The position numbers and the translations under genes were made by a program. Positions 6,059-35,303 of a stretch of 59,493 bases of DNA are shown here, in pieces. Below the pieces are notes generated by a model. The model worked only from the letters and a program-made list of their open reading frames with translations, was not told the DNA's origin and searched no databases. This stretch comes from Burkholderiaceae bacterium. GTDB taxonomy: Bacteria > Pseudomonadota > Gammaproteobacteria > Burkholderiales > Burkholderiaceae_C. Numbering within the stretch: the first letter of the stretch is position 1; each line of letters opens with the position of its first letter. Location: contig SCQQ01000061.1 in assembly GCA_004299095.1 (NCBI GenBank), forward strand, positions 1 to 59,493, given 5' to 3'.

Positions 6059-7543
6059 TCACGGGGCGCGCGGTGCCGGTGCGGGCGCGACCCAGTCGCG
6101 CGCGGCGTCGGTGGAAGCGAACAGCCGCACGTCGCCCAGGCCCTCGTCGTTCAGCCAGCGCGCCCAGCGCTGGTCGTCGGTGTCGGCCACGTCGTCGTCA
6201 TCGCTCGAACTGACCAGCAGCAGCGCGCAGCGCTGCACCTGGTTGACCACGCCGCGCACGAAGCGCGCCGTCCCCCGGTCCGGGCTGGACGCGGCATGCA
6301 CCGCCAGCACCAGCGCCTCGGGCGCGGAACTGCGCAGGCGGTCGATGGCTTGTTCGCGCTCGCGCGCGCCGCCTTCGATGCGTTGCGTGTTGCCGGTCGG
6401 CGGCAGGTCGGCGGGCGGCCACGCGGCTTCGGGCGGCAGCTCGAAGCCGATCAGCGCCCAGGTGCCGGGAATGGCCTGTGCGCGGAACGGGGCGCGAGCG
6501 CGACCGGTGCCGCCGTCATCGGCGTCGATCACGTGGCCGCCCGGGTCTTGCGCGTCGAGGTGTTGCAGGATGCGCTGCGTGTACGGATCGGCCGGATCGA
6601 TGGGTTTCACGCGCACGCTGCCCGCGTTCCAGCGCCAGAAACTCAGCAGCGCCAGCAGCAGGCGCGGCAGGAAACCATACACCGCCACGCAACCGATCAG
6701 CCACCAGGCCCAGGCGCGCTGCGCCAGCGGGTCGCCGAGCGCGGACTTGGCGGCGCTGCCCACTTGCTGGACTTCGGCCGCGTCCGGGATCGGCAAGCCC
6801 AGCAGCGCCGGCAGGTGGCCGGTCAGGTGCACGAATTTCTGGAAGAAAGCGGGCGTGAGAATCGTGGTTTCCCATGACAGGTGGTAAGCCTGAAACGCAA
6901 ACCCGAAGAGCAGCACCACCAGCGTCAGCGCCAGCTCCAGCGCCCAGATGCTGTGGCTCAGCATGCCGATGAACCAGGGCCAGAGGCGCTCGCGCTGCAG
7001 CACGCGCACCGAGGCACGCAGCAACTGTAGGCGGTGCGGGTTTTGCTCCCACGGCAGACGTGCCGTGATGGCGAGCGCAAAACGCCCGAGCGACCGGTCG
7101 CCCCCGGCGACATGCGAGCGTGCTCCGTACGACCACACGAGCTCGACGATCCAGACGACGAACGTGATCGCGTGCAGCCCGAGCAGGCTGGCGAGGGCGG
7201 CTACGGCGTTGATGCTGCGGTCCGGCGCGAGCACGCTGCGCGCCGCGGCGAAACCGGCGAGCGCCAGCAGCGCCGCCAGCACCAGCATCACCCAGCGGCC
7301 CCAGAAGCGCCAGCGCGCCAGCTCCTGCGGCAAATCGAGGCGTTGACCGAGCAGCCAGGCGCGCTCCTGCAACTGGTCGGTGCGCGTGGCGCGGTCGCGC
7401 AGCGCTTGCTGCACTTCGGCGTGATCGTCCAGCGGGCCGGCCGCTTCGATGCGGCGCAGTGCTTCGGTCACCACCGCCAGGGTGTAGGGGTGCGGCCGCG
7501 CGTCGTCCTGCGGCTTGGTGGCATGAACGGGCGCAGCGGTCAT
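6059..7543 (-). CDS. DUF2868 domain inner-membrane protein
   Basis: A 494-residue protein matching DUF2868 by overall layout. A cytoplasmic N-terminal helix-rich part (about residues 20-75) precedes two membrane segments near residues 82-100 and 115-140. Further segments follow around residues 200-225 and 275-300, and a soluble C-terminal domain of about 190 residues ends the protein. That domain includes a Rossmann-like stretch (EALVLAVHAASSPDRGTARF and CALLLVSSSDDDDV). The ATG at 7543 overlaps the stop of the upstream ClC gene by four bases (ATGA), indicating translational coupling. The GTPase follows after 74 bases. Function is unknown; pairing of DUF2868 with DUF3482 is a known genomic association. 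Confidence 0.87.
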   Translation of the reverse strand: MTAAPVHATKPQDDARPHPYTLAVVTEALRRIEAAGPLDDHAEVQQALRDRATRTDQLQERAWLLGQRLDLPQELARWRFWGRWVMLVLAALLALAGFAAARSVLAPDRSINAVAALASLLGLHAITFVVWIVELVWSYGARSHVAGGDRSLGRFALAITARLPWEQNPHRLQLLRASVRVLQRERLWPWFIGMLSHSIWALELALTLVVLLFGFAFQAYHLSWETTILTPAFFQKFVHLTGHLPALLGLPIPDAAEVQQVGSAAKSALGDPLAQRAWAWWLIGCVAVYGFLPRLLLALLSFWRWNAGSVRVKPIDPADPYTQRILQHLDAQDPGGHVIDADDGGTGRARAPFRAQAIPGTWALIGFELPPEAAWPPADLPPTGNTQRIEGGAREREQAIDRLRSSAPEALVLAVHAASSPDRGTARFVRGVVNQVQRCALLLVSSSDDDDVADTDDQRWARWLNDEGLGDVRLFASTDAARDWVAPAPAPRAP

Positions 7544-19016: not shown

Positions 19017-19727
19017 TTGCGTCAACTTCCTGTTTCTCGCTCACGTGACGTGTCGCCGCCGCGCGCCGTGTGGCCGCCCGGGCGCGCCGGCATCGTGCTG
19101 GATGCGAACGGACTGACCTGCCGCGTGGAAAGCCGGCTGCTTTGGAGCGACCTGGCACTGCGTTTGATTGCGGGCGAGCGCCTCGGCGTCACTGGTCCGT
19201 CGGGCAGCGGCAAGACCATGTTGTTGCGCGTGTTGTGCGGGCTGGAGCCGATCGCGCAAGGGACGATCACGTTTCGCGAACGACCGCTCGACGCGTGGGC
19301 CATGCCTGAGTACCGCGCGCGCGTGATGTACGTGCCGCAGCGCCCGCTGCTGCGCGAAGGCAGCGTGCAGCAGGCGCTGCGCGCGCCATTCGCGTTTCGC
19401 GTGCACAGCCGGTCGGCGTGGGACGCGGGCAGCATCAGCGAATGGCTGGCGCGGTTCGGCCGCGACGGAGCGTTCCTGCGGCAGCGCTGCGAGCGCCTGT
19501 CGGGCGGCGAAACGCAAATCCTGGCGCTGGTACGCGCGCTGGCGCTGGCGCCGCAGGTGCTGTTGCTGGACGAGCCCACGGCGTCGATGGATCGTGAAGC
19601 CGCCGCTGCCGCCGAACGCCTGATCGGCGACTGGCTGCATGCCCGCGCCGATCGCGCTTGCCTCTGGGTGAGCCACGACGAGGCACAACTGGCGCGCACC
19701 TGCGACCGCTTGCAGGCCATCGCATGA
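19017..19727 (+). CDS. fetA: FetA/YbbL-like ABC transporter ATP-binding protein
   Basis: A 236-residue ABC ATPase of the FetA (YbbL) type, working with the FetB-like permease encoded next. FetAB is linked to iron export and peroxide tolerance in Escherichia coli. Walker A is GPSGSGKTM near residue 60, the signature is RLSGGETQ near 160, Walker B is VLLLDEP near 180 and the switch histidine is in WVSHDEAQ. The TTG at 19017 is the longest start; GTG at 19050 is a plausible alternative. The stop TGA (19725-19727) lies inside an ATGA that begins the repeat element described next, so the gene probably once overlapped fetB directly. Confidence 0.85.
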   Translation: MRQLPVSRSRDVSPPRAVWPPGRAGIVLDANGLTCRVESRLLWSDLALRLIAGERLGVTGPSGSGKTMLLRVLCGLEPIAQGTITFRERPLDAWAMPEYRARVMYVPQRPLLREGSVQQALRAPFAFRVHSRSAWDAGSISEWLARFGRDGAFLRQRCERLSGGETQILALVRALALAPQVLLLDEPTASMDREAAAAAERLIGDWLHARADRACLWVSHDEAQLARTCDRLQAIA

Positions 19728-19967
19728 TCCCAAATCCGGCGGTCGACCGCTTGTGATTCCCTTGAGACCTGCATGAACACTCGCTTTGACTGCTTCGATC
19801 ATGCTCACCATAAAAGTGAACAGCGCTATGCACCCGCCAGTGCCGCGCTTGACGCGCCATGCGGCGTTGCTCCTCCTTGCGGGCACGAGCCCGCCGCGTC
19901 GTCGCGTCTTGCCTGGCACGCCAATCCCGACTCTGCCGGGCACATTCAACTGCCGGATTTAGGATGA
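19724..19967 (+). mobile_element. MITE-like element between fetA stop and fetB start, copy A
   Basis: A 244-base interval, counted with its flanking ATGA at each end, containing imperfect terminal inverted repeats. The left arm at 19729-19747 (CCCAAATCCGGCGGTCGAC) matches the reverse complement of the right arm at 19945-19963 (CCTAAATCCGGCAGTTGAA) at 15 of 19 positions. The left ATGA (19724-19727) supplies the fetA stop and the right ATGA (19964-19967) supplies the fetB start. A related copy lies at 32352-32594 with the same boundaries; the last 26 bases are identical and a block about 100 bases from the left end is roughly 80 percent identical. No transposase is encoded. Whether ATGA is a true target duplication or part of the element is not settled. 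Confidence 0.7.
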
Positions 19968-20779
19968 ACGCGCCGGCCTACATCCAGCTTGGGCCGCTGC
20001 AGCTTGCGCTGGCGGCAGCGCTGATCGTCATCAACCTCGGCATTTCGGTCTGGCTACGGCTCGGCCTGGCGCGCAACCTGCTCGTCGCCAGCGCGCGCAT
20101 GGTGGTGCAGTTGCTGCTGGTGGGCTTCATCCTGGACGCCATTTTTGCGTTGCGCACGCCGTGGCCGGTGCTGGGCATCGGCCTGGTGATGGCGGCGCTC
20201 GCGGGCTGGACCGCGGTGCGCCGCACGCGCCGGCGCTTTCGGGGGATTTTCTGGGACAGCCTGCTATCCATTCTCGGTGCGTCGTTCGTTGTGACCGGGA
20301 TCGCGCTCGTCGGCGTGATCCACGTGCGCCCGTGGTTCCTGCCGCAGTACGCCATACCGCTGTTGGGCATGGTGCTCGGCAACCTGCTCACCGGCGTGTC
20401 GCTCGCGCTCGACCGCTTCATGGAAACCGTGGTGCGCGAAGCCGGCGCCGTCGAAGCCGATCTGGCACTGGGCGCCACGCGCTGGGAGGCGGCGCACCCG
20501 CTCGTGGCGGACGCGCTGCGCACCGGCCTGATTCCTACCATCAACGCGATGATGGTCATGGGCCTGGTGAGTCTGCCCGGCATGATGACCGGGCAAATGC
20601 TGGCCGGCGCCGCGCCCGCTTCCGCCGTGCGCTACCAGATCGTGATCATGTTCGTGATCGCGGCGACCACGGCGCTGGGCACGCTGGCAGTCTGTGCGCT
20701 GGCGTTTCGCGCCCTGTTCAATGCGCGGCACCAGTTGTGTCTGGAGCGGTTGCGCACCGTGGAGCGCAAGCGGCTCTGA
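19964..20779 (+). CDS. fetB: FetB/YbbM-like ABC transporter permease
   Basis: A 271-residue polytopic membrane protein of the UPF0014/FetB family. About seven membrane helices are visible (for example LGPLQLALAAALIVINLGI, VQLLLVGFILDAIF, VLGIGLVMAALAGW). The family-conserved cytoplasmic stretch is present as GNLLTGVSLALDRFMETV, then EADLALGATRWEAAHPL and PTINAMMVMGLVSLPGMMTG. With the FetA-like ATPase it would form an exporter, iron in the characterised case. Its ATG is the right edge of a repeat element. The same frame is open through the element, so automated annotation may add about 35 spurious N-terminal residues. Confidence 0.9.
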   Translation: MNAPAYIQLGPLQLALAAALIVINLGISVWLRLGLARNLLVASARMVVQLLLVGFILDAIFALRTPWPVLGIGLVMAALAGWTAVRRTRRRFRGIFWDSLLSILGASFVVTGIALVGVIHVRPWFLPQYAIPLLGMVLGNLLTGVSLALDRFMETVVREAGAVEADLALGATRWEAAHPLVADALRTGLIPTINAMMVMGLVSLPGMMTGQMLAGAAPASAVRYQIVIMFVIAATTALGTLAVCALAFRALFNARHQLCLERLRTVERKRL

Positions 20780-20810: not shown

Positions 20811-20930
20811 GTCACCGCGTTCGCGGCGTCATGACGGCGGCTTCACCGTCATGACCTGTTCATGGCCGCCGTGGTGGCCGTCATTGAAGCGCAGCGAAGT
20901 CATGCCGCAGCGCAGCGGAGGCGGTCATCA
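20811..20930. repeat. GTCATG-spaced hairpin array, copy 2
   Basis: A run of short inverted repeats separated by GTCATG. CCGCG/CGCGG is at 20815-20819 and 20822-20826, and a 10-base inverted repeat GTCATGACGG/CCGTCATGAC is at 20828-20837 and 20846-20855. A block at about 20878-20929 (GTCATTGAAGCGCAGCG, then GTCATGCC and GCAGCGCAGCG) is nearly identical to the reverse complement of 26206-26259. It lies between fetB (plus) and the convergent histidine kinase gene, and could serve as a transcription stop for both. Confidence 0.65.
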
Positions 20931-26205: not shown

Positions 26206-26366
26206 GATGACCGCCCGCGCTGCGCTGCGGGGCATGACCTCGCTGCGCTTCAATGACCGGCGCTTCCGCGCCCATGACCCAAGTCATGGCAGCAAAGCTG
26301 CCGTCATGCCGTCGCACGACGGCGACGGCATTTCGTCATGCCGTCCGCCGCAAACGGCGGGTGCGG
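26206..26366. repeat. GTCATG-spaced hairpin array, copy 3 (inverted relative to copy 2)
   Basis: The stretch 26206-26259 matches the reverse complement of 20878-20929 almost base for base (GGTCATTGAAGCGCAGCG on the minus strand). It is followed by further small hairpins separated by GTCATG: GGCAGC/GCTGCC at 26288-26293 and 26297-26302, GCCGTCG/CGACGGC at 26308-26323, and CCGCCG/CGGCGG at 26345-26360. It lies in the promoter region of puuE and just after the mtgA stop. Confidence 0.65.
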
Positions 26367-31599: not shown

Positions 31600-32355
31600 T
31601 TGACGGCCACTCCTTCATCCCCGGGCGAAGTCAACCTGTCGGAAGTCGACGGGGTGCGTTATTTGCACTTCGGCACCGAGTGGGTGCAGGGCGCCATGCG
31701 GATCGATGCGCCGTTCGCGATCGAGCTGGAATACGTGCGCCGCATGATGGCGTGGCTGCTGTTCGTCGATGCGGATACGGTTGCCGACCGGCACGCCATG
31801 CAGCTCGGCCTGGGCGCGGGCGCCATCACCAAGTTTTGCCATCGGATCCTGGATATGCGCTGCACCGCCGTGGAAATCAACCCGCGCGTGGTCGACGTGT
31901 GCCGCGCGTGGTTCCATTTGCCGCCCGACGACGTGTGCTTGCAGGTGGTGGTCGACGATGCCGCCCATGCGATCGAGAACGCACAATGGCGAGACACGGT
32001 GGATGCGCTTGCAGTGGACATTTATGACGATGACGCCGCCGCACCGGTGCTCGACAGCGTTGAAACGTATGCGGCGTGCCGGCGCTTGCTCTCCGACTCG
32101 GGGGTTATGACCGTGAACCTGTTCGGGCGCACGGCGCAGTTCGATCGCAGCCTGGCACGCATCGCAGAGGTGTTCGGCGCGCGCGCCGTGTGGCGCTTCC
32201 GGCCGACGCGCGCGGGCAATACCATCGTTCTGGCGCAGCGCACGCCGATGCGGCCGACGCTGGCCCTGTTGCAGCAGCGGGCGCGGGCTATCGAGGCGCG
32301 TTTTGGGCTTCCGGCGCGGCGCTGGCCGCGTCTTTTGCAGGTCTTGGAACCATGA
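31600..32355 (+). CDS. Spermidine synthase-like methyltransferase-fold protein
   Basis: A 251-residue Rossmann-fold protein related to spermidine synthases. Visible motifs are a nucleotide-binding loop MQLGLGAGAITKF near residue 68, the acidic AVEINPRVVDVCR near 90 and DALAVDIYDDDA near 138. The glycine loop is GLGAGA rather than GGGDG, and the DxxDP-type catalytic segment is replaced by DIYDDD, so aminopropyl transfer should not be assumed. The likely start is TTG at 31600, 13 bases after glmM. The stop TGA (32353-32355) falls in the ATGA that opens the second repeat element. Confidence 0.75.
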   Translation: MTATPSSPGEVNLSEVDGVRYLHFGTEWVQGAMRIDAPFAIELEYVRRMMAWLLFVDADTVADRHAMQLGLGAGAITKFCHRILDMRCTAVEINPRVVDVCRAWFHLPPDDVCLQVVVDDAAHAIENAQWRDTVDALAVDIYDDDAAAPVLDSVETYAACRRLLSDSGVMTVNLFGRTAQFDRSLARIAEVFGARAVWRFRPTRAGNTIVLAQRTPMRPTLALLQQRARAIEARFGLPARRWPRLLQVLEP

Positions 32356-32590
32356 TCCTGAAGCCGACAGTCGACCGCTTGTTATCGTTTGCAAAGCCGT
32401 ATGAATATTGAGTTCTGTCGATTCGATGCGCTGGACCGTTCGGGTGATGGCGCCATGCACCCACCGGCGCCACGCTCGACGCGTCATGCTGCGTTGCTCG
32501 TCCCTGCGCACGCCAGTGCGCTGCCTCCTCGCGTTTTGCCTGACACGCCGATCACGGCACTGGCGGGCGCATTCAACTGCCGGATTTAGG

Positions 32591-32594
<4 letters not shown>
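32352..32594 (+). mobile_element. MITE-like element between gene stop and GspE-like start, copy B
   Basis: A 243-base interval including an ATGA at each end, the same arrangement as copy A. The left arm at 32357-32375 (CCTGAAGCCGACAGTCGAC) matches the reverse complement of the right arm at 32572-32590 at 14 of 19 positions. Its first 31 bases match copy A at 26 positions; its last 26 bases are identical to copy A. The left ATGA gives the stop of the spermidine-synthase-like gene and the right one the ATG of the secretion ATPase. The middle diverges between copies apart from a conserved block near 32451-32507. No protein-coding gene is supported inside. Confidence 0.7.
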
Positions 32595-34393
<1,799 letters not shown>

Positions 34394-35000: not shown

Positions 35001-35303
35001 TCAGCGTTCGACGCGAACGCGTTTGATCCGGCCTGCCAGGCCTGCCGCAATCGTCACGTTGGCCTTGGGAACGCCGAACCGGCGTGCCACCAGCGCGACC
35101 AGTTCCGCGTTGGCCTTGGGAACGCCGAACCGGCGTGCCACCAGCGCGACCAGTTCCGCGTTGGCCTTGCCGTCGACAGGCGGCGCTTTCAGGCGCGCGA
35201 GCCAGGTGCCGTCGGCATCCTGTGTCAATTCCGAGATGCGCGACCCCGGTTTGACTCTGACGCAGAGCGTGAGGCTTGCCATCGCGGGTGATTGGATCGG
35301 CAC
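35001..35303 (-). CDS. DUF167 (YggU-like) protein with internal 17-residue duplication
   Basis: A 100-residue protein of the DUF167 family of small cytoplasmic proteins of unknown role. The family core is LCVRVKPGSRISEL, WLARLKAPPVDGKANAEL and the C-terminal KANVTIAAGLAGRIKRVRV. The segment NAELVALVARRFGVPKA occurs twice in tandem because of a perfect 51-base duplication, where the family normally has it once; the protein is therefore longer than usual and the helix after PPVDGKAN is repeated. The start may be GTG 35303 or ATG 35282. Confidence 0.85.
   Translation of the reverse strand: MPIQSPAMASLTLCVRVKPGSRISELTQDADGTWLARLKAPPVDGKANAELVALVARRFGVPKANAELVALVARRFGVPKANVTIAAGLAGRIKRVRVER
35059..35160. 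repeat. Perfect 51-base tandem duplication
   Basis: Bases 35059-35109 and 35110-35160 are identical, beginning TTGGCCTTGGGAACGCC and ending CAGTTCCGCG. The next nine bases (35161-35169) repeat the unit start again. The unit is a multiple of three and lies inside the DUF167 gene, so the frame is kept. Confidence 0.97.

Follow-up and report, generated by a model that had tools for sequence, protein, structure and literature searches.

A MITE-like family whose duplicated target holds a stop triplet lies at stop/start overlaps in a Burkholderiaceae genome

Copies A and B, two short inserts that each lie between the stop codon of one gene and the start codon of the next in a Burkholderiaceae genome, are members of a MITE-like family of about 234 bp whose ends are of the form CCTARAAACGGCAGTTGA...TCAACTGCCGTTTYTAGG. 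The family is an IS1380-like MITE variant that, by duplicating its target, keeps stop codons intact and, where genes overlap, start codons as well. On the evidence of ends and targets, we consider it very probable that both copies are MITEs, putatively mobilized by a DDE transposase from a divergent group resembling IS1380 that uses a 5-bp NTNAN target. They show a concrete route for mobile DNA into a tight operon that leaves both proteins undamaged, the target copy serving as the stop codon and sometimes also as the start codon.

Copies A and B and their empty sites

Both copies lie in the window, i.e., the whole 59,493-nucleotide stretch of DNA that was analyzed. The geometry originally noted for copy A is borne out: an ATGA at 19724–19727 is followed by 236 bases and a second ATGA at 19964–19967. 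The upstream gene encodes a fetA-like ABC transporter ATPase (19068–19727, plus strand; Pfam ABC_tran, 99.8 bits) with its stop codon at 19725–19727, and the downstream gene a fetB-like UPF0014 membrane protein (19964–20779, plus strand; Pfam UPF0014, 291.7 bits) with its start at 19964. The 19-base arms, TCCCAAATCCGGCGGTCGA on the left and TCCTAAATCCGGCAGTTGA as the reverse complement of the right end, match at 16 of 19 positions. As the first A of the right ATGA belongs to the right arm, the invariant core of copy A is CC...GG, which spans 235 bp (19729–19963, plus strand) in the family alignment. The core is flanked by a left target copy ATGAT (19724–19728, plus strand), which holds the fetA stop TGA, and a right target copy ATGAA (19964–19968, plus strand), which holds the fetB start ATG.

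Copy B has the same geometry, again as noted, with ATGA at 32352–32355 on the left and at 32591–32594 on the right. Its left target copy, ATGAT (32352–32356, plus strand), holds the stop of a gene encoding 251 amino acids (31600–32355, plus strand) that has no Pfam match at 1e-5; this stop failed a stricter per-frame score and passed in two other gene-calling runs. The core, CC...GG, spans 234 bp (32357–32590, plus strand) and the right target copy, ATGAA (32591–32595, plus strand), holds the start of a type II/IV secretion ATPase gene (32591–34393, plus strand; T2SSE and MshEN domains). Copies A and B can be aligned end to end, with a mean column identity of 83%, flanks included, and at both the exact duplication comprises four bases only, with ATGAT on the left and ATGAA on the right. 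The three insert-free overlaps noted at 7540, 22366, and 36095 were all recovered by the gene caller used here.

The single overlap expected of an empty site is seen in relatives at both junctions, in all those with fetB at the first and in part of those examined at the second. The fetB gene is present in six relatives, and in all six an upstream frame of at least 222 open codons overlaps its start by four bases, with ATGA in five and GTGA in one; the long fetA–fetB spacer that had been named beforehand as evidence against insertion is absent. For the copy-B junction, 56 relatives had a match and 29 loci were sampled, of which 27 were examined (L250 and L253 were left out). A clean ATGA overlap was seen in 13 of these 27; two others have an ATGA overlap but also a possible earlier stop, and one has a TTGA overlap, while the remaining 11 have a spacer (in one case the stop lies about 130 nt ahead of the start codon), lack a stop under the criterion used, or carry the element itself. 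The element is present at this junction in L241 (genome G004), where an independent, shortened copy sits in the opposite orientation exactly at the copy-B stop upstream of the secretion ATPase. The copy-B stop site is empty in G012.

Family, target site, and innermost flanking bases

We found 13 distinct copies of the family in this 3.14-Mb genome; 13 similarity matches account for 12 of them, as one copy was matched in two parts, and the last was found through its ends. A family match at E ≤ 0.001 was present in 21 of the 60 genomes searched, this genome included (i.e., in 20 of 59 relatives); G035 and G042 each had one weak match with no recognizable ends. Relatives were sampled by best match, at most 13 candidates per genome being scored in a first search and at most 40 in a second. 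Ends of this type with ATGA after them were also found in 51 stretches of named public genomes, spread over many phyla and groups that include Verrucomicrobia, Nitrospira, Acidobacteria, Chlamydiae, and Burkholderiales. Most copies are 231–237 bp long; the outliers in this genome measure 142 bp (L007), 154 bp (L008), 317 bp (L009), and 315 bp (L012), and all are too short to hold a transposase gene, as is expected for a MITE. Two of them, L008 and L012, are decayed. End mismatches average 3.6 in the copies of this genome, compared to about 1.2 in relatives, and judged by their ends the copies here appear older. The proposal of a small non-autonomous mobile repeat is thus upheld, since the copies are scattered, share inverted ends, duplicate their target, and have empty-site counterparts in relatives. 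No known RNA family was detected in the window at the gathering threshold.

In one relative, G023, the best 40 of 222 first-look candidates gave 43 family matches, and the full-length ones are 92–98% identical to the query copy; this is a recent burst of the element. A search of G023 for an IS1380-family transposase found none.

To define the target we used copies with both ends at no more than five mismatches, which comprise 131 of the 146 copies found (L007 dropped out at this step); 107 of the 131 carry TNA on both sides. An identical 5-mer is present on both sides of 66 of the 131 copies, against a mean of 9.7 and a maximum of 19 in 2000 shuffles of the right flanks, and the other 65 have no exact 5-bp duplication. 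Palindromes of the form XTNAX', among them TTGAA, ATGAT/ATCAT, TTCAA, CTGAG, and GTGAC, make up 53 of the 66 exact 5-mers, compared to 71 of the window's 300 intergenic TNA sites. At the central position of the 5-mer, the left and right bases are identical in 98 of the 107 TNA copies and complementary in two, which makes this a direct duplication of the target and not an extension of the inverted repeat. Taken together, the flanks indicate that the target is a duplicated NTNAN, usually the palindrome XTNAX'.

Because TNA reads as TGA or TAA on one strand, each such target contains a stop triplet. Read on the plus strand of the element, both flanks carry TRA in 74 copies, and TYA in another 30. 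When the 98 copies from relatives with TNA on both sides are read on the stop strand, the first four target bases are TTGA in 37, ATGA in 24, TTAA in 10, and CTGA in 9, followed by the rarer GTGA (6), ATAA (5), GTAA (4), and CTAA (3). The original prediction that the repeat targets or tolerates ATGA and duplicates it therefore holds for the duplication, but is too narrow for the target, which is NTNAN. We rejected an ATGA-only target because TTGA is commoner than ATGA in relatives and most of their copies are intergenic.

It had also been suggested that the element ends are ATCC...GGAT, in which case the repeated ATGA would be intrinsic to the element and no target copy would exist. The base adjoining each end is indeed complementary to its partner in 86 of the 107 copies, as in an inverted repeat. 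However, the bases further out vary among copies, are repeated directly and not inverted (the center base being the same in 98 and complementary in two of 107), and occur once in empty relatives. This suggestion, which we regard as scarcely credible, is refuted for the TNA and survives for the single innermost base only. A separate candidate, a 3-bp duplication combined with a terminal base pair borne by the element, was rejected since it misfits 13 exact non-palindromic 5-mers.

Where the duplicated NTNAN is inexact, the differences follow a pattern. The two 5-mers differ in 41 of the 107 copies; complementarity is found between the two bases next to the element in 33 of these, and between the two outer bases in eight. 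Among 26 copies with one outer difference and the same center, 23 pair only inside, two only outside, and one at neither position. Later mutation of one target copy was rejected as the cause, since it would mispair inner and outer bases equally often (23 vs. 2 observed, p = 2e-5). When inner pairing is kept, the side that differs is the right one in 12 copies and the left one in 11. Those gene-start copies that differ between sides in the fifth base (A, B, L003, L005, L007, L009, and L049) consistently have T as the left fifth base, and the right target copy keeps the start codon; at ATGA junctions, ATGAT on the left faces ATGAA, ATGAC, or ATGAG on the right. In relatives, however, ATGAT is absent from the 18 empty ATGA overlaps, all of which are ATGAA, ATGAC, or ATGAG. 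The opposite outcome, ATGAA/TTGAA, is seen in L290 and L310, the latter at a stop without a start, and L006 (ATAAC/ATAAA) is an exception to the inner-pairing pattern.

We infer from these flanks that a 5-bp duplication may be followed by hairpin-templated correction of the innermost base (quasi-palindrome correction), with selection preserving the start codon; a donor-borne flanking base is the alternative. A wider proposal, tentative and on balance doubtful, is that integration or its aftermath makes the end-touching bases complementary and that the junction copies of this genome have in addition been retained as spacers between overlapping operon genes, so that stop/start overlaps would form a preserved niche for mobile DNA. 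The complementary inner flanking bases provide a directly testable clue to the integration mode of such transposons.

Positions relative to genes and predicted effects

Stop/start overlaps hold 7 of the 13 copies in this genome by a hand-curated count (A, B, L003, L005, L007, L009, and L031), of which five are firm (A, B, L003, L007, and L031). Six of the junctions are of the type ATGA/ATGA and one, L003, is GTGA/ATGA. At L005 there are two consecutive TGA triplets, giving a gene overlap of TGATG, and at L009 the upstream frame has only 81 codons and no Pfam match. Three further copies lie at real stops without a junction (L002, L006, and L011), and L010 borders a gene start to the right, with no stop to the left. 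By domain matches, the co-directional neighbors of copies in this genome include an ABC ATPase and UPF0014, HlyD and AcrB, Na+/H+ antiporter subunits, DsbD and a thioredoxin-like protein, and RNB and TonB.

For comparison with relatives we used a custom gene caller, for which 27 long frames from the window served as the training set and which misses or mis-sets some genes. The classification left out 22 copies without TNA on both sides and five with short flanks, leaving eight copies in this genome and 96 in relatives. The caller placed 24 of these 96 at stops, 64 in intergenic DNA, and eight inside called frames. Stops are enriched among the relatives' copies (24 stop, 64 intergenic) compared to control XTNAX' sites in the same loci (53 stop, 362 intergenic; odds ratio 2.6, p = 0.0016), and the same caller gave six stop and one intergenic copies in this genome, compared to one and eight for control sites (p = 0.009). 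In contrast to this genome, stop/start overlaps account for only 2 of the 96 relative copies; the junction excess is significant with the caller alone (4/8 here vs. 2/96, p = 2e-4) and when the hand count of 7/13 is set against the caller's 2/96 (p = 2e-6), a comparison that mixes two count methods. The expectation that copies lie mostly at ATGA overlaps is thus correct for this genome, where one of the seven is GTGA/ATGA, but fails for the family. Copies at arbitrary sites without ATGA, which had been proposed as contrary evidence, do occur in relatives, given that 64 of the 96 relative copies are intergenic and TTGA is the commonest target motif.

In other phyla, where copies were chosen for a right-hand ATGA, 3 of 24 lie at stops compared to 11% of control ATGA sites, i.e., there is no enrichment. 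General junction targeting across phyla was rejected because none of the 24 copies with a left end combines a stop with a start, and because frames of at least 80 codons follow 9 of 52 copies, compared to 28% of control ATGA sites. We also rejected the idea that older copies are more often at stops, as no such trend was seen in relatives (1.16 vs. 1.19 end mismatches, p = 0.37).

These counts suggest that, in the relatives sampled, copies land or survive preferentially at stop codons, and that the preference for junctions is peculiar to this genome. With a junction excess confined to this genome and no stop enrichment in other phyla, simple tolerance is insufficient as an explanation; survival in a compact genome and retention for an effect of the element at junctions are both candidate causes. 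One could instead suppose that the element specifically recognizes stop/start junctions, or ATGA, in place of a general NTNAN. The contrast within this genome would fit such recognition, with 7 of 13 copies at overlaps, whereas of the 344 eligible TNA sites that the window contains three are empty junctions. For the family, however, a junction-specific target is contradicted by the relatives, in which 64 of 96 copies are intergenic, two are at overlaps, and TTGA exceeds ATGA, and likewise by other phyla, in which none of 24 copies chosen for a right-hand ATGA is at a stop plus a start. We consider specific recognition highly improbable and retain the general NTNAN target.

The following sequence of events would account for the positions observed. 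A transposase would cut a 5-bp NTNAN target, with a preference for XTNAX'. Insertion exactly at an in-frame stop would leave the upstream protein unchanged, since TNA is TGA or TAA on one strand, and where the stop overlaps the start of the next gene, as in ATGA, the target copy would restore the start too. Junctions would therefore be among the few sites within operons where insertion spares both proteins. Selection would presumably purge insertions within genes, with the result that copies accumulate at stops and junctions. After insertion at a junction the start would lie about 240 nt from the upstream stop, positions 1 and 2 of the start codon would be drawn into an RNA stem formed by the element ends, and translational coupling would probably be lost or weakened.

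Copies A and B are consistent with this sequence of events. The fetA stop and the fetB start are retained at the flanking ATGA copies, so that both frames survive as had been predicted, and the proteins on both sides of either copy stay intact. RNA folding, performed for copy A alone, gave z = −4.3, with the ends paired in a strong hairpin whose outermost pairs are predicted to include positions 1 and 2 of the fetB start codon. Translational uncoupling of fetA and fetB is plausible given this modeled structure. The fetA–fetB and secretion-ATPase junctions offer natural pairs, with and without the insert, for measuring the role of the 4-base overlap in coupling.

A 64-codon frame in copy A (19773–19967, plus strand) terminates at the TGA within the right ATGA. 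Frames of this length ending on the TGA of the right target are found in L001, L002, L003, and L010, and L007 has a 33-codon version, shortened by a 93-bp in-frame deletion. It is conceivable, though in our view unlikely, that junction copies are retained for function, either because such a frame re-couples translation or because the hairpin governs the relative amounts of the two proteins. Consistent with retention, the frame begins with ATG in L001 and L003 (64 codons) and in L007 (33 codons); reversed junction copies have a frame with a start codon on the gene strand (44 codons in L005 and L009, 22 in L031); and the copies here, despite their age (mean 3.6 end mismatches vs. about 1.2 in relatives), are still recognizable. 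Against it, differences between L001, L002, and L003 are spread evenly over codon positions (16, 14, 17; 17, 17, 22; and 17, 15, 18), copy B has no internal frame of that kind, and the +1 base shared by L001, L002, L003, and L007 may reflect common descent. With no codon-position constraint among L001–L003, we rejected the internal 64-codon peptide as a gene and treated it as incidental.

Candidate mobilizer and related elements

Nine full-length insertion sequences of the same genus or family, 1630–1666 bp long, have similar ends with one to four mismatches per side: L323 (1648 bp), L324–L328, and L332–L334. A Nitrospira element of 1637 bp, L102, has the same kind of ends, and in all ten cases the ends that the MITEs share with these autonomous elements differ by no more than four mismatches per side. 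No good end pair was obtained for the partial elements L329–L331. An exact NTNAN 5-mer is present on both sides of five of the nine (L324, L325, L326, L332, and L333), whereas the 5-mers differ between sides at L323, L327, L328, L334, and L102. The targets of the five exact cases are all non-palindromic (TTGAT, TTCAG twice, GTGAA, and CTAAT), whereas those of the MITEs are mostly palindromic; the true mobilizer may therefore be another enzyme.

Two of the transposases were scored on the IS1380 model NF033539 and reached 118.2 bits (L102) and 140.6 bits (G014), which places both below the curated cut-off of 180 bits for IS1380 membership. The next best model for the L102 transposase scored 28.4 bits, and both proteins contain Pfam DDE_Tnp_1 and DDE_Tnp_1_4. 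No transposase of this IS1380-like kind was found in the present genome, a draft of 122 contigs from which the gene may be missing. Around the canonical IS1380 genes of the genus (>400 bits; L187–L189, L200, L201, and L207), no matching ends within four mismatches were found in the flanking DNA retrieved.

Like other bacterial MITEs, the present elements are short, lack a transposase gene, share inverted ends with full insertion sequences, occur in many copies, duplicate their target, and fold into a hairpin. Unlike them, the family has a 5-bp NTNAN target with a stop triplet on one of its strands, and its copies in this genome are concentrated at gene overlaps. The IS1380 family has a target duplication of 4–5 bp, in keeping with the exact 5-mers at five of the insertion sequences, and the ends of ISEcp1 begin with CCT, as do those of the present elements. 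The candidate mobilizer resembles this family in its DDE transposase, which scores best on the IS1380 model, its size of about 1.65 kb, and its 5-bp duplication, but differs in that its transposases, at 118 and 140.6 bits, fall under the 180-bit cut-off. One report gives IS1247, of the IS1380 family, as 1672 bp with a DR of 5 (PMC3281130). A target that supplies a stop codon is described in one account of ISPsp10, of the IS427 group of the IS5 family (PMC4133298); as described there, the stop terminates the transposase frame, whereas in the present family it terminates a host gene. We found no description of the present family in the open-licence literature searched.

Several other repeats were observed. 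Several IS1380-like fragments in G054 (L191, L209, L211, and L213–L216) have in common the conserved end GCCTCAACTGCTGTTTTTTGGACGCACTGCTTC, or a close variant of it, together with conserved flanking bases; perhaps they represent a related element with a different target rule. In the window, an inverted pair of about 70 nt (20860–20929 and 26206–26277), which contains TCATTGAAGCGCAGCGAAGTCATG, comprises two blocks that are 83% and 92% complementary. A similar motif lies directly after the element in L055 and L136, so this may be another dispersed repeat. Finally, a 51-nt unit is present in two perfect head-to-tail copies at 35057–35158.
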